Of a DNA stretch of 37,567 nucleotides, positions 934 through 37,567 are shown piece by piece. This DNA comes from Hyphomicrobiales bacterium. Its GTDB lineage: Bacteria; Pseudomonadota; Alphaproteobacteria; Rhizobiales; Xanthobacteraceae. The DNA lies in NCBI GenBank assembly GCA_018335895.1, contig JAGXQU010000008.1:1-37567 (forward strand), given 5' to 3'. How positions within the stretch are numbered: position 1 is the stretch's first letter; every line of letters starts with the position of its first letter. The notes under the pieces were generated by a model that worked only from the letters and a program-made list of their open reading frames with translations, was not told where the DNA came from and did no database searches. Position numbers and translations under genes: made by a program.

Positions 934-1689
934 TTATTCAGCGGCAGTCTGCCGGATTTTTGCGCCGGGCAGGTCGAGACCCGCGGAAAGCGTGTCGTCC
1001 CGGAACGCTTTCACACCATCGAGCGCGAGATCGGCGGCAGTCTTGGTGCCGAGCGCTTTCAATTTCTTGAGGATATCGGCGGGCGCGGTGATGATGTGTG
1101 TGCCCATATCGTTCGCCTCGATCACGTTCCAGACCTCGCGGGTCGAGGCCCAGATCACTTCGACGTTCTTCGCCTGATTCGCGAGCTTCACCGCAAGCGA
1201 CACCGCGGGCTTGTAGTCGATGCCGAGATCGGCAAGCCGGCCAGCGAACACCGAGGTACAACCCGGCGCATTGCCCGCGAGCGCAGCGGTCGCGCGCTCG
1301 ACCTGCTCCACGGTGCAGAGCACGGTGACGTTGATTTTCACGCCGTCCTTCGAGAGCGTGTTGATCGCCTCATAAAGCGTCTCGCCGCGCGTATTGATGA
1401 CCGGCAGCTTCACATAGACGTTCTTGCCCCAGGTGGTGATGAGGCGCGCCTGCGCGATCATCTCCGGAATGTCGTCGGACAAGACTTCGAACGAGATGTG
1501 GCGGTCGGGCACGGCCGCGACCAGATCGCGCGCATAGGCCTCGTAGTCGGTTACCCCCGCCTTCTTGAGCAGCGACGGGTTCGTGGTGAAGCCCGCGACG
1601 TGCTTCTGCTTCGCCATCTCCACGATCTGCACCTTTTCGGCGCCGTCCGTGAACAGCTTGATCTTCAGCGACTCCAGCGTGCGGGTCAT
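934..1689 (-). CDS. Transaldolase family protein (small TalC/FSA-like type)
   Basis: This 251-residue protein has the single-barrel look of the short transaldolase/fructose-6-phosphate aldolase group. The N-terminal 'LFTDGAEKVQIVEMA...GFTTNPSLLKKAG' segment and 'VYVKLPV' are characteristic, and Lys94 in the latter is the expected Schiff-base lysine. 'VLCTVEQ' and 'ISVFAGRL'-like strands follow in order. Transaldolases move a dihydroxyacetone unit between sedoheptulose-7-phosphate and erythrose-4-phosphate in the pentose phosphate pathway. A GGATAGG-type ribosome site lies about ten bases before the ATG. It reads toward the sugar dehydrogenase, with a 105-base gap, and is divergent from the LPS glycosyltransferase gene. 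Since sedoheptulose-7-phosphate is the precursor of ADP-heptose, its place beside two heptosyltransferases may be meaningful, though this is inference. Confidence 0.88.
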   Translation of the reverse strand: MTRTLESLKIKLFTDGAEKVQIVEMAKQKHVAGFTTNPSLLKKAGVTDYEAYARDLVAAVPDRHISFEVLSDDIPEMIAQARLITTWGKNVYVKLPVINTRGETLYEAINTLSKDGVKINVTVLCTVEQVERATAALAGNAPGCTSVFAGRLADLGIDYKPAVSLAVKLANQAKNVEVIWASTREVWNVIEANDMGTHIITAPADILKKLKALGTKTAADLALDGVKAFRDDTLSAGLDLPGAKIRQTAAE

Positions 1690-1706
1690 GATCTTTGCCT
1701 ATCCTC

Positions 1707-2866: not shown

Positions 2867-3828
2867 TGCCTGAAATTCTCTTCATCAAGACGTCTTCGCT
2901 GGGCGACGTGATCCATCATATGCCGGCCGTTACCGACGCTCGGAAGCATTTCCCGAACGCCAAGATTTCGTGGATGGTCGAGGAAGCTTACGTGCCGCTC
3001 GCGAAGCTGCATCCGGGCGTCAACGACGTGATCCCGGTCGCGGTGCGCCGCTGGCGGAAGGCGATCCTGAAGCCCTCGACCTTCTCGAAAACATGGAATG
3101 AAGTCAGCCGCTTGCGCGCGAAGCTGAAACTCAAGCGCTTCGAAAAGATCATCGACACACAGGGTCTCGTGAAAACCGTCGTGCTCTCGAAATGGGCACG
3201 CGGCGAGCGGCACGGATATGACGCGAAGTCCATCCGCGAACCGTTCGCATCGCGCTTCTATCACGTGAAGCACACGGTGAGCCGCGAGTTGCATGCGGTC
3301 GACCGCAACCGGGCGCTCACCGCCGCCGCACTCGGATATAAAGTCGAAGGCGACACCGACTACGGCATCGACCGCAAGCGCATCGCGCCGGTGTCGGACG
3401 CGCCCTACGCACTTCTGTTCCACGCCACCGCGCAGGAAAGAAAAGAATGGCCGGAGGAGCGTTGGATCGAAGTCGGCAAGGCGTTAGAGGCCAAAGGCAT
3501 CACGCCGGTTCTGCCCTGGGGTAACGACCGTGAGCACGCACGCAGCCACCGCATCAAGAATGCGCTTAAGAATGCACGCGTACCGGCCAAACAGCCGCTC
3601 GGCGAGGTGGCGGGACTGATCGCCGGCGCGACTTTGGTCGTCGGCGTCGATACCGGCTTGCTGCATCTGGCGGCCGCACTCGAAGTGCCGCTGGTCGCGA
3701 TCTTCATCGCGACCAAGCCCGGTCTTTCCGGGCCCGTCAGCAGCGGCCCGATGACGACGCTCGGCACCGCGGGCGAAATGCCGACGGCAGCGGAAGCGAT
3801 TGCAGCGATCGAGAAGTTGCCGCGCTAG
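2866..3828 (+). CDS. waaC: Lipopolysaccharide heptosyltransferase I (GT9)
   Basis: This 320-residue protein begins 'ILFIKTSSLGDVIHHMPAV', the typical N-terminus of heptosyltransferase I, where the Asp of 'LGD' is the proposed catalytic base. The donor-site signature 'DTGLLHLAAAL' starts at Asp262. WaaC adds the first L-glycero-D-manno-heptose from ADP-heptose to Kdo2-lipid A. Its ATG shares one base with the upstream mannosyltransferase stop. Its TAG stop is interlocked with that of the convergent heptosyltransferase II gene in a CTAG tetranucleotide. It lies between two other LPS core transferases, which supports the call. Bradyrhizobial cores are often poor in heptose, so some acceptor or donor divergence is possible. 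Confidence 0.88.
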   Translation: MPEILFIKTSSLGDVIHHMPAVTDARKHFPNAKISWMVEEAYVPLAKLHPGVNDVIPVAVRRWRKAILKPSTFSKTWNEVSRLRAKLKLKRFEKIIDTQGLVKTVVLSKWARGERHGYDAKSIREPFASRFYHVKHTVSRELHAVDRNRALTAAALGYKVEGDTDYGIDRKRIAPVSDAPYALLFHATAQERKEWPEERWIEVGKALEAKGITPVLPWGNDREHARSHRIKNALKNARVPAKQPLGEVAGLIAGATLVVGVDTGLLHLAAALEVPLVAIFIATKPGLSGPVSSGPMTTLGTAGEMPTAAEAIAAIEKLPR

Positions 3829-4871
3829 ACCTTCGCGAACCCTGGCATCGTCATCGCCCGCTTCACCGACGCCACGACGCGCGAGGCCGGAATCTCTCGC
3901 ATGCAGTTGTGATGCTGGAGCGGACAGACATACTTCATGCAGAACTGGCAATCCAAGAGCGGCTCGTGCGTGATGATGTCCGCGACCGGATTGATCGGCG
4001 CCCACTTTGCGGGATCGGTCGGGCCGAACATGCCGATTGCGGGAACGCCGAGCGCGGCGGCGACATGCAGCAGGCCTGAATCGTTTGCGACCACCGCGCT
4101 CGCCTGCGAGAGTGCGATCACGCCGTCGGAGAGTTTCCCGCCCGTGAAATCGCGCACGCCGCTTCCCGCGTGATCGAGAATCTCTTTCGCGAACGGCTTT
4201 TCGTCAGGCCCGCCGATGACCCAGACCTCGACGCCGCTCTGCGCAATCTGTTTCGCCGCTTCCGCGTAATAGGCCACCGGCCAGCGCTTCGCCTCGCCGA
4301 CCGATCCCGGCGCGAGCGCAACCGCGCGCGTGCCCTTCACGACATTCATCCGGCCGCGCCATTCGTCCGCCTGCGCCTCGCTCACGACAAGCTGCGGCAG
4401 CGGCCAGGTTTCCGGTAGCGGCGCATTCTTCGGAAGCGCGAGCGCGCAGGACTGGTCGATCATGCGCGTGTGGTTCTTTTCGTCCCAGCGGATGTCGTTC
4501 AGAAGCAGAAAGCGCGCCTCGCCCAAGACTCCCGTGCGTTCCGGAATACCGGCGAGCCACGGCGCGAACGCCGCCTTCCACTTGCGCGACATAATGAGCG
4601 CCGAGCCGTAGCGCTCCTCGCGCAGCAGTTTCGCGAGCGCGAAGTTTTCGGCGAACGCCGCTTTCTTTCGCGGAATGTCGAAGGAGATCGCTTTTCGCAC
4701 GCCGGGCATGAAAGAAGTTAGCGGCGCGGTCAGCTTCGAGGCCAGCATGTCGATGGGCCGGCCCGGGAAGCGCTCATTGAGAACGCGGACCACCGAGTGG
4801 CAGCGCACGAAATCGCCGATCCAGACATAGGGCACGATCAGGATCGGCCGCTCATCGTTCTCTTTATTCAT
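3825..4871 (-). CDS. waaF: Lipopolysaccharide heptosyltransferase II-like (GT9)
   Basis: The 348-residue protein is a GT9 member: N-terminal 'ILIVPYVWIGDFVRCHSVVRVL', a nucleotide-sugar site 'NDSGLLHVAAALGVPAIGMFGPTDP', and the C-terminal cysteine cluster 'DCQFCMKYVCPLQHHNC' typical of WaaF. WaaF adds the second heptose from ADP-heptose to the inner core in the cytoplasm. Here the usual 'iGDavl' motif is 'IGDFVR', so the catalytic Asp is kept. The gene runs convergent with waaC and the two share a CTAG in which both stop codons lie. It is divergent from galE across 158 bases. WaaF is the best fit, but a transferase for another core sugar in the same family cannot be excluded. Confidence 0.87.
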   Translation of the reverse strand: MNKENDERPILIVPYVWIGDFVRCHSVVRVLNERFPGRPIDMLASKLTAPLTSFMPGVRKAISFDIPRKKAAFAENFALAKLLREERYGSALIMSRKWKAAFAPWLAGIPERTGVLGEARFLLLNDIRWDEKNHTRMIDQSCALALPKNAPLPETWPLPQLVVSEAQADEWRGRMNVVKGTRAVALAPGSVGEAKRWPVAYYAEAAKQIAQSGVEVWVIGGPDEKPFAKEILDHAGSGVRDFTGGKLSDGVIALSQASAVVANDSGLLHVAAALGVPAIGMFGPTDPAKWAPINPVADIITHEPLLDCQFCMKYVCPLQHHNCMREIPASRVVASVKRAMTMPGFAKV

Positions 4872-5029
4872 GACACTTCTTTGAAAAAACTACGGGCGCA
4901 GCGCAAGCCCTATGGTGAATCCTTCGTAAACCTTCCCGGATTCTCAGAAAATCAACCCTGTCGCTTAGGGGGCCTTCAACCCGCGACTGTTATCCGTCTG
5001 TCGCAGAAAAGAGGCAAAGCGGACGGCGA

Positions 5030-6022
5030 ATGGCAATTCTGGTCACAGGCGGCGCCGGCTACATCGGCAGCCATATGGTCCTCGCGCTTTGCGACGCGGG
5101 CGAGACCGTCGTCGTACTCGACGATCTTTCGACCGGCATCCGCGAGAACGTCGATCCGCGCGCCCGCTTCGTGCAAGGAGACGTCTCCGATCCGCTGATC
5201 GTCATGCGGCTGATCGCCGAACACCGCATCCGCGCGGTGGTGCATTTCGCAGCCAAGATCGTGGTGCCGGATTCGGTCGCCGATCCGCTCGACTATTATC
5301 TCGCGAACACCGTGAAAACGCGCGCGCTGCTCGCCGCGGTCACGAGCGCGCACGTTCCGCATTTCGTGTTTTCATCGACCGCAGCCGTCTACGGCAATGT
5401 CGGCCAGGAGCCGGTCAGCGAAGAAACGCCGGCCAGCCCCGTCTCGCCTTACGGCGCATCGAAGCTGATGTCCGAGTGGATGCTGCGCGACAGCGCCGCG
5501 GCCTACGGACTGAAATACGTGGCGCTTCGCTACTTCAACGTCGCCGGCGCCGACCCGAAAGGCCGCGCGGGGCAGTCCACGCCGCGCGCCACGCACCTCA
5601 TCAAGGTCGCCTGCGAAACTGCTACGGCTAAGCGCAAGAGCATGCAGGTTTTCGGCACGGACTATCCGACCGCGGACGGCACCTGCATCCGCGACTATAT
5701 TCACGTGAGCGATCTCGTGAGCGCCCACATGGACGCGCTGAACCATCTCAGGAACGGCGGCGGCAACCAGATCCTCAACTGCGGCTACGGCACGGGCTAT
5801 TCGGTGTTCGAAGTGATCGAGACCGTGAAACGGGTTTCGGGCGTCGACTTCCCGGTAGAACTCGCGCCTGCCCGCGCGGGCGATCCGGCGGCGATCGTGG
5901 CAAGCGCCGGAAAAATCCGGAGCACGCTCGGCTGGCAGCCGAAATACGACGATCTCGAAACCATCGTTCGCCACGCACTCGCCTGGGAGCGCAAGCAGCC
6001 CGCGAAATCTGCGGCGGCCTGA
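5030..6022 (+). CDS. galE: UDP-glucose 4-epimerase
   Basis: This 330-residue extended short-chain dehydrogenase interconverts UDP-glucose and UDP-galactose. The NAD motif G-x-x-G-x-x-G is at residues 7-13 and the catalytic Tyr141-x3-Lys145 pair in 'SPYGASK', with the active-site Ser/Thr in 'FSSTAAVYG'. The C-terminal 'DYPTADGTCIRDYIHVSDL' is a GalE hallmark. Length is normal. It opens a plus-strand run galE-ugd-galU-exporter-manC devoted to nucleotide sugars. The 158-base upstream gap must hold its promoter and that of the divergent waaF, but I see no convincing -35/-10 pair. Confidence in the function is high. Confidence 0.95.
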   Translation: MAILVTGGAGYIGSHMVLALCDAGETVVVLDDLSTGIRENVDPRARFVQGDVSDPLIVMRLIAEHRIRAVVHFAAKIVVPDSVADPLDYYLANTVKTRALLAAVTSAHVPHFVFSSTAAVYGNVGQEPVSEETPASPVSPYGASKLMSEWMLRDSAAAYGLKYVALRYFNVAGADPKGRAGQSTPRATHLIKVACETATAKRKSMQVFGTDYPTADGTCIRDYIHVSDLVSAHMDALNHLRNGGGNQILNCGYGTGYSVFEVIETVKRVSGVDFPVELAPARAGDPAAIVASAGKIRSTLGWQPKYDDLETIVRHALAWERKQPAKSAAA

Positions 6023-6097
6023 CGCTTTTTCAGCACAAACTTGCCGCGGACGACGCCCTCGTGGCACAAGCCTTCCGCAATAGCCGGGTAGGTTTCG

Positions 6098-7408
6098 ATG
6101 CACATCACGATGATCGGCGCGGGTTACGTGGGCCTCGTTTCGGGCGCCTGCTTCGCCGATTTCGGCCATAACGTCTGCTGCGTCGATACCGACGCCGCCA
6201 AGGTCGCGGCACTCCGCGACGGCAAGATTCCGATCTTCGAACCGGGCCTCGACGAGATCGTCGCACGCAACGCGAACGCGGGCCGCCTCTCTTTCACGAC
6301 GAAGATTGCGGAAGGTCTCGCACATGCCGAGGTCGTGTTCATTGCGGTCGGCACCCCCTCGCGGCGCGGCGACGGGCATGCCGACATTTCTTATGTGCTT
6401 GCCGCTGCCCGCGAGATCGCGAACGCGGCGACAAAGCCCCTCGTCGTCGTCACGAAATCGACCGTGCCGGTCGGCACCGGCGACGAGATCGAGAAGGTGA
6501 TCGCCGAAACAAAGCCGAAGGTGAAAATTTCGGTGGTCTCCAATCCGGAATTCCTGCGCGAGGGCGCTGCAATCGAGGATTTCAAGCGTCCCGACCGCAT
6601 CGTAATCGGCGCCGAAGACGAAGACGCGCGCAAGGTGATGGCCGCGGTCTATCGTCCGCTCAACCTCAATCAGGCGCCGCTTCTCTTTACCGGGCGCCGC
6701 ACGGCGGAGCTGACGAAATACGCTGCCAACGCGTTCCTCGCGACCAAGATCACGTTCATCAACGAGATGGCGGACCTCGCGGAGAAGGTCGGCGCGAACG
6801 TGCAGGAGATCGCGCGCGGTATCGGCCTCGACAACCGCATCGGCGCGAAGTTCCTGCATGCCGGTCCCGGCTATGGCGGGTCGTGCTTTCCGAAAGACAC
6901 GCTCGCGCTGATCAAGACCGCGAAGGATTTCGGCGCGCCGTCGCGCATTGTCGAGACCGTCGCGGACGTAAACGACAAGCGCAAAGCCGCGATGGCGGAG
7001 CGCATAATCGCCGCAGCCGGCGGCTCGCTCAAGGAAAAGACGGTCGCGGTGCTCGGTCTCACCTTCAAGCCGAATACCGACGACATGCGCGATGCGCCGT
7101 CGCTCGAAATCGTGCCCGCCCTGCAGAAGGCAGGCGCGAAAATCCAGGCGCACGATCCCGAGGGCATGGAAGCGGCGGCGAAACTCCTGCCGGATGTCGC
7201 ATTTTGCAGCGGCCCCTACGAGGCAGCGAAGGACGCTTCCGTCCTCGTGCTGATCACCGAATGGGATGTCTATCGCGCACTCGACCTCGACCGGCTCAAG
7301 GCTTCGCTTCTTTCTCCGTCCGTCGTCGATCTGCGCAACGTCTACGTGCCCGCCGAGATGGCGGCCAAGGGCTTCCGCTACGTGAGCATCGGCCGACCGC
7401 CGGTTTAA
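6098..7408 (+). CDS. ugd: UDP-glucose 6-dehydrogenase
   Basis: The 436-residue protein oxidises UDP-glucose to UDP-glucuronate with two NAD+. It shows the N-terminal Rossmann motif G-x-G-x-x-G at 7-12, 'KSTVPVGTGD' and 'NPEFLREG' in the first domain, the linker helix with 'ELTKYAANAFLATKITFINE', and the catalytic Cys263 in 'GGSCFPKD'. The C-terminal UDP-binding domain has 'LGLTFKPNTDDMRDAPS'. Length is typical. It follows galE after 75 bases, with GGTAGG before its ATG. UDP-glucuronate is a precursor of acidic exopolysaccharide and of galacturonate in rhizobial LPS cores. Confidence 0.96.
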   Translation: MHITMIGAGYVGLVSGACFADFGHNVCCVDTDAAKVAALRDGKIPIFEPGLDEIVARNANAGRLSFTTKIAEGLAHAEVVFIAVGTPSRRGDGHADISYVLAAAREIANAATKPLVVVTKSTVPVGTGDEIEKVIAETKPKVKISVVSNPEFLREGAAIEDFKRPDRIVIGAEDEDARKVMAAVYRPLNLNQAPLLFTGRRTAELTKYAANAFLATKITFINEMADLAEKVGANVQEIARGIGLDNRIGAKFLHAGPGYGGSCFPKDTLALIKTAKDFGAPSRIVETVADVNDKRKAAMAERIIAAAGGSLKEKTVAVLGLTFKPNTDDMRDAPSLEIVPALQKAGAKIQAHDPEGMEAAAKLLPDVAFCSGPYEAAKDASVLVLITEWDVYRALDLDRLKASLLSPSVVDLRNVYVPAEMAAKGFRYVSIGRPPV

Positions 7409-18798: not shown

Positions 18799-18860
18799 TC
18801 CAATATCCTAACTCCACACGGAATCCAGACAAATCCCCACCGGCTCACGCACGCTCGCTT

Positions 18861-18884
18861 CCCTCCCCCGTTTGTGGGGGAGGG
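18861..18884. repeat. Palindromic GC repeat between coxM and coxD
   Basis: CCCTCCCCC (18861-18869) and GGGGGAGGG (18876-18884) form a perfect 9-bp stem with a six-base loop GTTTGT. Partly complementary flanks CTCACGC and GAGTGAGGG extend it. I recognise it as a common intergenic repeat type in Bradyrhizobium-like genomes. Lying between the structural and maturation genes of one operon, it may stabilise or cut the mRNA, or weaken read-through. There is no T-run typical of an intrinsic terminator. Confidence 0.75.
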
Positions 18885-18928
18885 ACTAAGAGTGAGGGTA
18901 CGGCACCCGGAATGACAATGAAGAGATA

Positions 18929-32065: not shown

Positions 32066-33361
32066 ATGGCCGCACCCAAACCGCCAGCCTTTGAAACTCT
32101 GAGCCTGCACGCCGGCCAGCATCCGGACCCGGTGACCGGCGCGCGTGCCGTCCCGATCTATCAGACCACGTCCTACGTCTTTCAGGACACCGACCACGCT
32201 GCGGCACTCTTCAATCTCGAGCGCGCGGGCAACATCTACACGCGCATTTCCAACCCGACCACGTCGGTGCTCGAGGAACGCATTTCTGCGCTCGAAAACG
32301 GCGTCGGCGCGGTTGCGACCGCAAGCGGCATGGCGGCACTTCATCTCGCGATCGCGACGATCGCGAGCGCCGGCGATCACATCGTCGCTTCCGCTTCGCT
32401 CTACGGGGGCACAATCAATCTGCTCGCGCATACGCTGCCGCGCTTCGGCATCACGACAACCTTCGTGAAGCCGCGCGATCACGCCGCCATCAAGGCCGCG
32501 ATCAAGCCGAACACCAGGCTCGTGATCGGCGAGACCATCGGCAATCCCGGCCTCGAAGTGCTCGACATTCCGAAGGTCGCGGAGATCGCGCATGGCGCGA
32601 AGATTCCGTTACTGATCGACAACACCTTTGCGACACCCTATCTCTCGCGCCCGCTTGAACTCGGCGCCGATCTCGTCATGCACTCCATGACCAAATGGAT
32701 CGGCGGGCATGGCATCGCGATCGGCGGCATCATCGTCGATAGCGGCCGTTTCGACTGGGTCGGAAGCGGCAAGTTTCCGCAGCTCACCGAACCCTATGCC
32801 GGCTATCACGGCATCAATTTCGTCGAGCAATTCGGTCCTTGGGGCTTCGTGATGCGTGCGCGTTCGGAGGGTCTCCGCGATTTCGGCGCCTGCATTTCCC
32901 CGACCAACGCATTTCAGATTCTGCAAGGCGTCGAGACACTGGGCGTACGCATGGACCGTCACGTTGCAAACACGAAAGCCGTTCTGGAGGCTCTTTCCAA
33001 AAATCCGGCCGTCGAATGGGTATTGCACCCTTCCCTGCCTTCGCATGAAGACTTTGAACTTGCGAAGAAACTCCTCCCCCGCGGCGCGGGCTCCATCGTC
33101 AGCTTCGGCATCAAGGGTGGCCGTGCAGCCGGCAAGAAATTCATCGAGAGCCTGCGGTTGGCGAGCCACCTCGCAAACGTCGGCGATGCGAAGACGCTTG
33201 TGATCCACCCGGCCAGTACGACGCATCAGCAGATGGATGCGCGGCAACTCAAAGCTGCCGGCATCGGCGAGGAACTGATCCGCCTCTCGGTCGGCATCGA
33301 AAATGCCGCCGACATCATCGACGATCTCGCGCAGGCGCTGCGCACCTCGCAGAAAGCGTGA
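32066..33361 (+). CDS. O-acetylhomoserine aminocarboxypropyltransferase / sulfhydrylase family (PLP)
   Basis: The 431-residue protein belongs to the Cys/Met metabolism PLP family (MetY/Met17 type). The PLP lysine is Lys210 in 'MHSMTKWIGGHG'. 'YTRISNPTTSVLEERISALE', 'ATASGMAALHLAI' and 'IHPASTTHQQMDARQLKAAGI' match O-acetylhomoserine sulfhydrylases, and the 430-residue length separates it from the shorter MetB/MetC and MetZ forms. The enzyme makes homocysteine from O-acetylhomoserine and sulfide. The frame is open upstream, but the ATG at 32066 gives the normal N-terminus. The next gene follows after four bases, so the pair is one operon. I see no SAM riboswitch in the short upstream gap. Confidence 0.94.
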   Translation: MAAPKPPAFETLSLHAGQHPDPVTGARAVPIYQTTSYVFQDTDHAAALFNLERAGNIYTRISNPTTSVLEERISALENGVGAVATASGMAALHLAIATIASAGDHIVASASLYGGTINLLAHTLPRFGITTTFVKPRDHAAIKAAIKPNTRLVIGETIGNPGLEVLDIPKVAEIAHGAKIPLLIDNTFATPYLSRPLELGADLVMHSMTKWIGGHGIAIGGIIVDSGRFDWVGSGKFPQLTEPYAGYHGINFVEQFGPWGFVMRARSEGLRDFGACISPTNAFQILQGVETLGVRMDRHVANTKAVLEALSKNPAVEWVLHPSLPSHEDFELAKKLLPRGAGSIVSFGIKGGRAAGKKFIESLRLASHLANVGDAKTLVIHPASTTHQQMDARQLKAAGIGEELIRLSVGIENAADIIDDLAQALRTSQKA

Positions 33362-35485: not shown

Positions 35486-36319
35486 TCAGTCCCACTCCAC
35501 GAGTTCCTGCAAGCGCCGCTCGTCGAGCAGCGTAAGCCGCCGCCCGTCGAGCCGCAGAAGCCCGCTCGTCCGGAACCGGCTCAGAATCTTGCATACGTGA
35601 ACTGCGGTAAGTCCGGTTGCATCCGCGAGCTGTTGCTGGCGAACCGGAAAATCGATCGTACCATCATGCGCCAGTCCTTTTTTGTGCAGCCGATTGTGCA
35701 CGCTTAAGAGCAGCCGCGCGATCCGAGCCTCTGCCGAGCGCCGGCCGAGATCGAGGCTCAACTGATCCGCGCGTTCTCGCTCTTCGGAAATCGCGCGGCC
35801 AAGCTTCGCAGCAAGACTGCGGCTCTGAATAACCGCCTCGATCAATTCGCTGCGGCGGAATTTGCGGCAGGAGACCTGCGAGACCGCTTCGATGGCGCGT
35901 CCTGCACAGGTTTCGAAGAGATAGTTCATCGAGACCGCTTCGCCCGCGAGCGCGAAGGACACGATCTGCTTTCGTCCGTTTGCCACGGTGATCGAAGCCG
36001 CTGCCCAGCCGGAGCAGATCACCGGCACATAATCGCTTTCCTCGCGCTGGTGAAGGATCGTGCGGCGCGGGGGAAAGACCTGAACCTGCGAAGGCACGTG
36101 CGGCATGCCGCGCCCCGGCGGCGGATCGGTCTCGCTTTTTACTCCGAAACCGGGGCAGGCTCCGGTTTCGCGAACGAAGCATCCGCTGCAGGTCGGCAGG
36201 TAACGGGCATCGGCCGCTACGGGAGCCGCCTTGCCGTTTTCGCCGGGTGGGGTTTGGCGGAAACCGAACGCTTCGCCGGGTACGCTTTCACTCGAACGAT
36301 CCTCTCGAGTCTTCAGCAT
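35486..36319 (-). CDS. Crp/Fnr family regulator with FNR-type cysteines and atypical recognition helix
   Basis: The 277-residue protein has an N-terminal extension, a cyclic-nucleotide-type beta-roll (about 75-170), a dimerisation helix and a C-terminal winged helix. Cys44, Cys47 and Cys55 form C-x2-C-x7-C, the FnrN/AadR spacing, and Cys151 in 'VSQVSCRKF' matches the fourth FNR cysteine, so an oxygen-labile 4Fe-4S cluster is plausible. The recognition helix reads 'GLTAVHVCKILSRF'. The E-x-x-S-R that reads TTGAT in FNR is V-x-x-C-K here, so its DNA site should differ. The start could be later, but must precede Cys44. Its targets may include adjacent genes. Confidence 0.87.
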   Translation of the reverse strand: MLKTREDRSSESVPGEAFGFRQTPPGENGKAAPVAADARYLPTCSGCFVRETGACPGFGVKSETDPPPGRGMPHVPSQVQVFPPRRTILHQREESDYVPVICSGWAAASITVANGRKQIVSFALAGEAVSMNYLFETCAGRAIEAVSQVSCRKFRRSELIEAVIQSRSLAAKLGRAISEERERADQLSLDLGRRSAEARIARLLLSVHNRLHKKGLAHDGTIDFPVRQQQLADATGLTAVHVCKILSRFRTSGLLRLDGRRLTLLDERRLQELVEWD

Positions 36320-36385
36320 GGTCCACCGAGAATCAGTTGCGCATGGGAAACAATACCCAGCGCCAAGAGTGCAATATATTGGTGT

Positions 36386-36391
36386 ATTATA
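36386..36391 (-). promoter_or_regulatory. Candidate -10 box of the Crp/Fnr-type gene
   Basis: The minus strand reads TATAAT here, an exact -10 consensus, about 67 bases before the regulator's ATG. No good -35 sits 16-18 bases upstream, which would fit a promoter needing an activator. The palindrome CAATATATTG just downstream could allow autoregulation. Confidence 0.4.
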
Positions 36392-36601
36392 AGAAGGTCG
36401 CCGTTCTAGGGTTGTAGCCTCGCGAGGTGCTCAGTGAGACCTGCTCCCGTGCGGACCGACCGGGGAGCCGGACCAGCGCCTCCTTTGCCAAGCTAAGTTG
36501 TTGTGTTGCTTAGCGAACACTCCACTGCAGGACTGATCCGCTAAAAATACCGCTTGATCGACGGGCTTTGCTCCAGCTATTAGCCCTGCACGTGAAATCG
36601 A

Positions 36602-36628
36602 TATAATCACATATATAGATGTGATTAT
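36602..36628. promoter_or_regulatory. Palindromic operator overlapping a TATAAT box upstream of the YeeE permease
   Basis: Arms AATCACAT (36605-36612) and ATGTGATT (36619-36626) surround a six-base centre. Adding the flanks gives a 26-base palindrome (36603-36628) with one mismatched pair. TATAAT at 36602-36607 is an exact -10 box and lies inside the left arm. The ATG is 37 bases beyond. A dimeric repressor bound here would block RNA polymerase. AT-rich operators of this size suit ArsR/SmtB-type sulfide sensors of the BigR/SqrR group, which control YeeE permeases elsewhere; that link is inference. Confidence 0.65.
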
Positions 36629-36665
36629 TGGAGCGGCGCAAAACCGCCGGCCGGAAACGAAAATC

Positions 36666-37567
36666 ATGAGTCCGTTGGTACTTTCTCTTTGGGCCGGTCT
36701 TGCGATCGGCGCGGCGTTCGGCGTGACCGTGCAGCGGACAGGCTTCTGCCTGAACTCCGCATTCCGTGGCGCGCTCGTCTCCGGCGACAATCGCAAGCTC
36801 GCGTCATTCGGACTCGCGATGGCGATTGCGGTTCTATCGACACAGGCGCTCGAAGCATCCGGCCTGATCGACCTCAAACGCTCGATCTATCTGTCCACGC
36901 CTTCCTCGTGGCTCGTCGTTCCTCTTGGCGGTGCGCTGTTCGGCTACGGCATGATCGCCGCGAACGGCTGCGGCCCGCGCGCACTCGTGCTCCTCGGCCA
37001 GGGCAACCTGCGCTCGTTCCTTGTTCTGCTTTGTCTGGGTATCGCCGCCTTCGCGGCGCTGAGCGGCATCTTCGCGCCGGTTCGCACAGCACTTGCAGCG
37101 CCGACCACGCTTGTTTTCGAAAAGCTGCCTTCCGTGCCGCGCTATCTCGAAGCCTCGCTCGGCGCGGGTGCTGCACGCCTGCTTCCTGCCGCGGTGTTGT
37201 CGCTGGTCCTCGCGGGCCTCGCATTCAGGAGTGCGGCGTTCCGCGCTAGTCCGCGCGACATCGTCGGCGGTGTAGCCGTAGGGCTCCTGATCGCAGCAGG
37301 CTGGTTTGCTACCGGCTATCTCGGTCAGGACGAGTTCGAGCCCGCCCCGGTGGCGTCGCTCACCTTCATCGCGCCGGTCGGCGAAACGATTCAATACGCG
37401 ATGTTCGCTACCGGCGCGCGCATGACCTTCGGGATTGCGGTCGTCTGCGGCGTGTTCCTTGGGTCGCTTGTATCCGCCCTCGCGACGCGCAGCTACGAAT
37501 TGCAGAGTTTCAGCCGCCCGACACAAATGCTGCGATACATGGCGGGCGGCACGCTGATGGGTCTCGG
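36666..37567 (+). CDS. YeeE/YedE family sulfur-compound permease (TsuA-like, 3' end outside window)
   Basis: The frame is open from the ATG at 36666 to the window edge, giving 300 residues of a protein usually 330-400 long. It has about seven or more hydrophobic helices. The family repeats are visible as 'VQRTGFCLNSAFRGAL' with Cys28 and 'IAANGCGPRALVLLGQGN' with Cys102; these pore cysteines pass thiosulfate by transient hydrogen bonds in the studied TsuA. 'MLRYMAGGTLMGL' at the edge opens another repeat. It imports thiosulfate or another reduced sulfur species across the inner membrane. Only a weak GGAAACGA precedes the ATG. The palindrome over its -10 box suggests induction by a sulfur signal. 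Confidence 0.88.
   Translation, partial: MSPLVLSLWAGLAIGAAFGVTVQRTGFCLNSAFRGALVSGDNRKLASFGLAMAIAVLSTQALEASGLIDLKRSIYLSTPSSWLVVPLGGALFGYGMIAANGCGPRALVLLGQGNLRSFLVLLCLGIAAFAALSGIFAPVRTALAAPTTLVFEKLPSVPRYLEASLGAGAARLLPAAVLSLVLAGLAFRSAAFRASPRDIVGGVAVGLLIAAGWFATGYLGQDEFEPAPVASLTFIAPVGETIQYAMFATGARMTFGIAVVCGVFLGSLVSALATRSYELQSFSRPTQMLRYMAGGTLMGL

Follow-up and report, generated by a model that had tools for sequence, protein, structure and literature searches.

The window, which is the whole of contig C8 (37,567 nucleotides) of a Hyphomicrobiales genome assembled in 191 contigs (G000), ends in a sulfur permease gene preceded by a long palindrome, and the question raised by this locus is what such an element might do there and which protein might read it. 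The inverted repeat occupies positions 36603-36628 and reads ATAATCACAT-ATATAG-ATGTGATTAT. Its arms (36603-36612 and 36619-36628) match perfectly over 10 bases around a 6-base centre, and with the centre included 12 of 13 pairs are formed. The initial annotation had described a 26-bp palindrome starting at 36602; the palindrome is real but begins one base later. Two further statements, that the repeat overlaps an exact TATAAT (36602-36607, forward strand) and that it ends at 36628, 37 bases ahead of the start codon (ATG, 36666) of a YeeE/YedE gene, were confirmed. The same annotation had called the TATAAT, which overlaps the left arm, a -10 box. It is a putative one at most: a search for sigma-70-type promoters (-35 and -10 hexamers with a spacing of 16-18) found none in 36200-36800, and no -35 hexamer was seen by eye at the usual spacing from TATAAT. 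The hexamers aligned to it in related genomes are TTTAAT, TAAAAT and CATAAT.

By length alone the palindrome is unremarkable. The window contains four palindromes with perfect 10-base arms separated by at most 10 bases, as compared to 1.5 per dinucleotide shuffle, and at least one such palindrome occurred in 195 of 300 shuffles of the whole window. When only the 346-base intergenic region was shuffled, 17 of 5000 sequences contained one. The pattern AATCACAT-N6-ATGTGATT with up to three mismatches matched once in the window against 0.01 matches expected, and one in 100 shuffles had a match. What sets the palindrome apart is that it is intergenic and conserved. Elsewhere in the window, a perfect G+C-rich palindrome TCCCTCCCCCGTTTGTGGGGGAGGGA at 18860-18885 is possibly a terminator stem, and two more G+C-rich palindromes with perfect 10-base arms are located at 3692-3715 and 32345-32367.

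The gene downstream of the palindrome (36666-37565, forward strand) encodes a YeeE/YedE-type permease, P0002, that belongs to the Sulf_transp family (PF04143; 150.4 bits, curated cut-off 27). Since the contig ends at 37567, inside yeeE, relatives were used in place of the sequence to the right. The comparison set consisted of eight genomes of the genus (G000-G007), with a reported completeness of 99% for G006, 90% for G003 and 86% for G005, and a wider set comprised 391 genomes of the family. The site was found in four of the eight. In G000 and G005 it stands directly before yeeE, and in G003 and G006 it precedes fccA-fccB-yeeE, with soxYZ divergently oriented on the other side; fccAB encodes flavocytochrome c sulfide dehydrogenase. 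FccB of G003 matches PF09242 and PF21706 (FCSD_central, FCSD-flav_bind), FccA carries a cytochrome c domain, and SoxY and SoxZ match their own Pfam families, all above the Pfam cut-offs. Among the NCBIfam models that these proteins match, only the one for SoxZ was passed at its cut-off. The domain matches of FccB, SoxY and SoxZ mark the unit as sulfide-related. FccB proteins 86-91% identical to that of G003 are encoded in G001, G005 (contig C68) and G006, and a fragment (88%) in G004. The FccB matches in G000 are more distant, with 48% identity in a separate sox cluster on contig C55 and 25% on C109.

No trace of the additional genes was found beside yeeE in the two shorter loci: over the final 9.6 kb of the G000 contig, soxYZ, fccA and fccB gave nothing better than an E-value of 0.6, and contig C203 of G005 had no match. 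By eye, the TTGGAG that follows the palindrome in G000 resembles the ribosome binding site before fccA in G003 and G006, which would fit a takeover of the fccA leader by yeeE. The simplest history would be that soxYZ and fccAB were lost and the promoter was retained for yeeE; the reverse, a later insertion of soxYZ/fccAB in G003 and G006, is possible.

Seven close yeeE copies (at least 70% identity) are present in the genus, and the start of the transcription unit is visible in six of them, because the G004 contig begins inside fccB. The palindrome, whose absence before orthologous permease genes would have counted against a role in their control, is present at four of these six copies and absent at two, namely at fccAB-yeeE of G001 and at a second, partial copy in G005 (C68), where the best matches have two and three mismatches. 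No yeeE match at all was found in G002 and G007. A genome-wide search for AATCAC-N7-12-GTGATT returned one match each in six of the eight genomes. In G000, G003, G005 and G006 this sole match sits where the yeeE transcription unit begins. The two others (G001:C1:569681 and G007:C2:884704) have exact arms with N7, and the one in G001 is far from its fcc/yeeE unit.

The four promoters that carry the site are pairwise 55-76% identical, and G000 shares 55-58% with the other three. Against this divergence AATCAC, GTGATTA and the block AAAAATACnnCTTG (36543-36556) are invariant, the latter at a gap-free distance from AATCAC in all four carriers. Also kept in all four, six bases ahead of AATCAC, is the block ACGTGAAAT (36590-36598; ACGTGrAAT, one base variable). 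Spacing is fixed across the four promoters save for one base in the centre, AATCAC and GTGATT being separated by N10 in G000 and by N11 in G003, G005 and G006. All 13 arm columns are invariant compared to 36 of 85 over the ungapped footprint, which has a chance of 3e-6 if columns are interchangeable; this figure is optimistic because the pattern used to find the G003 and G006 rows already required 12 of these bases. The G005 row had already been found through a protein search before the pattern search. Together, the gene context and the conserved letters support the assignment of the palindrome as a putative regulatory site of sulfur oxidation.

An extended pattern occurred in four of the 391 family genomes, all in this genus and once each, while its reversed control gave none. 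Among 38 loci found with the permease alignment, the 33 from other genera had no exact arms. One of them from Campylobacterales (L130) has the arms with one mismatch about 3.2 kb ahead of the permease gene. The fccA promoters of Pelagibacterium, Aliihoeflea, Halomonas (two loci) and a Bradyrhizobiaceae bin revealed no similar palindrome by eye. Within G000, ATCACAT-N6-ATGTGAT with up to three mismatches gave 68 forward matches versus 3 for the reversed control; among the matches listed one was exact, one had one mismatch, five had two and the rest three. Besides the site itself, G003, G005 and G006 have 9 to 12 two-mismatch matches each versus 1 to 4 for the control. Neither excess was taken as evidence for more sites, which may nevertheless exist, since in our judgement the reversed control differs in codon-like words. 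A genome scan for the two half sites with a 6-base centre had been suggested: the window site is exact, but no second regulon member was counted. The one-mismatch match at C191:84225 in G000 falls inside a cytochrome c biogenesis reading frame, presumably ccmF.

The best explanation is an operator, since an inverted repeat covers a plausible -10, its letters do not vary and each carrier genome has a single exact copy. We infer that the palindrome forms the core of a putative conserved operator in the promoter of a sulfide-oxidation unit, bound by a dimeric regulator encoded elsewhere; the balance for and against this interpretation appears about even to us. The ancestral-type layout would have the palindrome between divergent soxYZ and fccA-fccB-yeeE, as in two relatives, and in G000, where soxYZ and fccAB are missing at this locus, the promoter would have come to stand directly ahead of yeeE. 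A dimeric DNA-binding protein would most likely bind AATCAC-N10/11-GTGATT, overlap the RNA polymerase site and repress transcription until a sulfur signal releases it. Repression is more likely than activation. Several observations count against an operator. A rigid dimer site would not usually vary in its centre spacing between 10 and 11, fccAB-yeeE occurs without the site in G001 and in the second G005 copy, no -35 was recognized, and the arms also form an RNA hairpin. The operator interpretation rests on four sequences from one genus.

The initial annotation had proposed a sulfide- or persulfide-responsive switch of the BigR/SqrR type. The site could then be the operator of a thiol-switch ArsR repressor (SoxR/SqrR/BigR) encoded elsewhere, which would leave the promoter once a per- or polysulfide links two of its cysteines. 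As had been stated, the window has no ArsR gene: a PF01022 search (E ≤0.001) gave seven matches in G000, none of which falls on contig C8. Two such thiol-switch proteins are encoded in G000. The one on C55 has 125 amino acids, with cysteines at 50 and 116 only, and adjoins a second yeeE in a sox cluster; the same positions are given for Hyphomicrobium denitrificans SoxR in the available sections of PMC10451225. The other, on C109, lies next to an ETHE1/Blh-like gene; it has a cysteine in ILCQL and another close to the C-terminus. When compared to the NCBIfam BigR model, three ArsR proteins (two from G000, one from G005) scored 85-104 bits, below the cut-off of 155. As far as the same sources go, H. 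denitrificans SoxR affects sox genes and binds beside soxT1A, a YeeE-like gene (PMC10451225, PMC11582611). Furthermore, the ACGTGrAAT block of G006 is overlapped by an exact ATTC-N8-GAAT, which is the SqrR site as deduced in the part of PMC9774250 available; in G000, G003 and G005 this motif is at least two mismatches off.

The distribution of these repressors fits the site poorly. None of the four PF01022 matches in G006 is of the SoxR/SqrR/BigR type: one is a 334-aa fusion, two lack the cysteine pair, and the fourth is a 123-aa ArsR-type protein (L102, G006:C5:34820 region, 1333-1704, reverse strand) with five cysteines elsewhere (46, 95, 96, 103 and 112) and no match to the BigR-like query; this last protein could still be a thiol sensor. 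A cysteine-pair ArsR of this type is therefore not detected in every carrier. G001 has such an ArsR gene and fccAB-yeeE, yet no site, and G002 and G007 have such genes without yeeE. The BigR-like promoter of G000 carries another palindrome, TATATTAGATTACTCTAATTTA. Because of this different palindrome and the G006 result, the BigR/SqrR part of the proposal is weakened and we consider control by a repressor of this kind unlikely, while its broader sulfur part stands in that the site is kept before yeeE or fccA-fccB-yeeE in half of the genus genomes.

Both G000 loci with these ArsR genes have a sulfur-related setting. On C55 (L060, G000:C55:1-12000) a sox cluster contains the SoxR-like ArsR gene, the second yeeE (37% identical), soxY, soxZ and more sox-like genes, and the fccB relative with 48% identity is at C55:11294-12559. 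On C109 (L168, G000:C109:38000-47000, 3733-6378) the ETHE1/Blh-like gene, which encodes a metallo-beta-lactamase fold, is divergent from the BigR-like ArsR gene; rhodanese-domain and TauE-family genes follow, and an AT-rich palindrome of its own lies between the ETHE1/Blh-like and BigR-like genes. The ETHE1/Blh-like protein scored 383 bits with the NCBIfam Blh model, below the cut-off of 625.

A second candidate is the neighbour itself. The divergent gene at 35486-36319 (reverse strand) encodes P0001, which the initial annotation correctly called Fnr-like: it is a Crp/Fnr-type regulator (PF13545, PF00027) and might bind the palindrome and control yeeE. Such a gene is the divergent neighbour in G000, lies beside soxZ in G003 and is left as a remnant beside an aminotransferase gene in G006. 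G006 has an intact site but retains just 34 C-terminal codons of this gene. In G005 a homologue (55%) is encoded on a different contig from the site, and G001, G002 and G007 have homologues (49-61%) without having the site. Crp/Fnr-domain proteins occur in all eight genus genomes, so their presence does not discriminate. Crp/Fnr sites consist of inward-facing TGTGA or TTGAT, with TTGAT-N4-ATCAA as the FNR and TGTGA-N6-TCACA as the CRP target pattern, whereas GTGATT in the palindrome faces outward. The FNR pattern was not found within three mismatches in the G000 promoter and is matched with two mismatches in G003 and three in G006 and G005; no CRP site was recognized, as judged by eye only. 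In favour of this candidate, the recognition helix region of P0001, TAVHVCKIL, lacks the residues of E. coli FNR, so that its target may be a different one. P0001 is probably not the regulator acting on the palindrome, and we regard its control of yeeE through this site as improbable.

Two side observations concern this family. P0001 has an N-terminal cysteine cluster CSGCFVRETGAC, where its relative in G003 has CNGCFVRKTGAC. The remnant in G006 (L057, contig C16, 10459-10563) has one stop in the matched stretch and adjoins a transglutaminase-family gene.

Alternatively, the arms could pair in the transcript and form a hairpin in the 5' leader, by which the fccA or yeeE mRNA is controlled in its translation or stability. 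The loop is variable, the hairpin is close to the ribosome binding site in G003 and G006, fold z-scores are -2.6, -2.9, -1.8 and -1.8, and one of the ten stem pairs is changed on both sides in the four sequences compared. Against this, six of the stem pairs have the same letters throughout, which speaks more for sequence than for shape being recognized. Two inner pairs are broken in G005 and a single one in G000, and the covariation term, at +0.5 for four sequences only, is unfavourable. The left arm would lie outside the transcript if TATAAT is the -10. A hairpin also leaves the conserved upstream blocks unexplained, and no match in the window attained the gathering score of an Rfam family. 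An RNA role seems to us about as improbable as control by P0001. A chance palindrome, or an inherited relic without function in G000 after fccAB loss, is very improbable: about 1.5 such palindromes are expected per window and the G000 site is one centre base shorter than the other three, but its arms are exact despite the drift of the promoter, and G005 likewise keeps the site directly ahead of a lone yeeE.

If the palindrome is an operator, its regulator may be of another kind. Three GTGA half sites that alternate in direction can be read from the sequences at 36592, 36607 and 36621, in 15-base steps with a final step of 14 in G000. We tentatively suggest, with more doubt than confidence, that an undescribed sulfur-responsive regulator other than SoxR/SqrR/BigR, CsoR or the Fnr-like neighbour reads these three half sites and controls the divergent soxYZ and fccAB-yeeE units of this genus. 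The regulator families searched were ArsR, CsoR and Crp/Fnr. CsoR/CstR was rejected as a common factor: PF02583 has two matches in G000 and none in G003, G005 and G006, of which G003 and G005 are the less complete genomes. Judged by title, none of the reports listed on AATCAC/GTGATT operators deals with sulfur oxidation, which weakly suggests that the element is undescribed. The available parts of PMC8014003 and PMC7315123 hold nothing on the palindrome site. It is a conserved sulfur-linked cis element, an ordinary kind of switch, that the obvious candidate regulators fit poorly.

Comparison with known systems places the locus as follows. The gene order fccA-fccB-yeeE of G003 and G006 is the same in the inspected loci of Pelagibacterium and Halomonas (L124, L109), which have no AATCAC..GTGATT within one mismatch. 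The TsuA/YeeE thiosulfate transporter has structures in PDB 6leo and 8j4c, and the permease aligns with 6leo over residues 8-300 of 300 with an E-value of 3.9e-11; with 81 bits against the NCBIfam TsuA cut-off of 400, P0002, whose query sequence is cut off, is a family relative and not an established TsuA. Like the palindrome, SqrR/BigR/YgaV operators are inverted repeats that cover the polymerase site of an operon responding to sulfur, but as far as described in the accessible text they read ATTC-N8-GAAT (PMC9774250) instead of AATCAC/GTGATT with 10-11 bases between, and the motif of this type in G006 is beside the palindrome, not inside it. The SoxR/sHdrR system of H. denitrificans, also an alphaproteobacterium, likewise has YeeE-like permease genes beside sulfur-oxidation genes, under repressors that bind intergenic regions with repeats (PMC10451225, PMC11582611, PMC12423496, available sections); these sections give no operator sequence. 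SoxR and sHdrR bind intergenic regions of the cluster, one of them adjoining soxT1A (PMC10451225, PMC12423496), and the YeeE-like SoxT proteins import sulfur or relay a signal to SoxR (PMC11582611). In the part of PMC5748708 available, SoxR of Bradyrhizobium diazoefficiens is likewise a repressor, and activation is by CbbR and RegR. In the papers cited here, so far as their text was accessible, sulfur oxidation is mostly controlled by ArsR-type repressors, as it is in H. denitrificans, whereas none of that thiol type is detected in G006, one of the carriers. The palindrome site is compatible with this general picture, yet the evidence does not allow it to be classed as a SoxR operator. Its occurrence at fccAB-yeeE in such a genome points to another regulator, for the capture of which the conserved site provides a short DNA probe.
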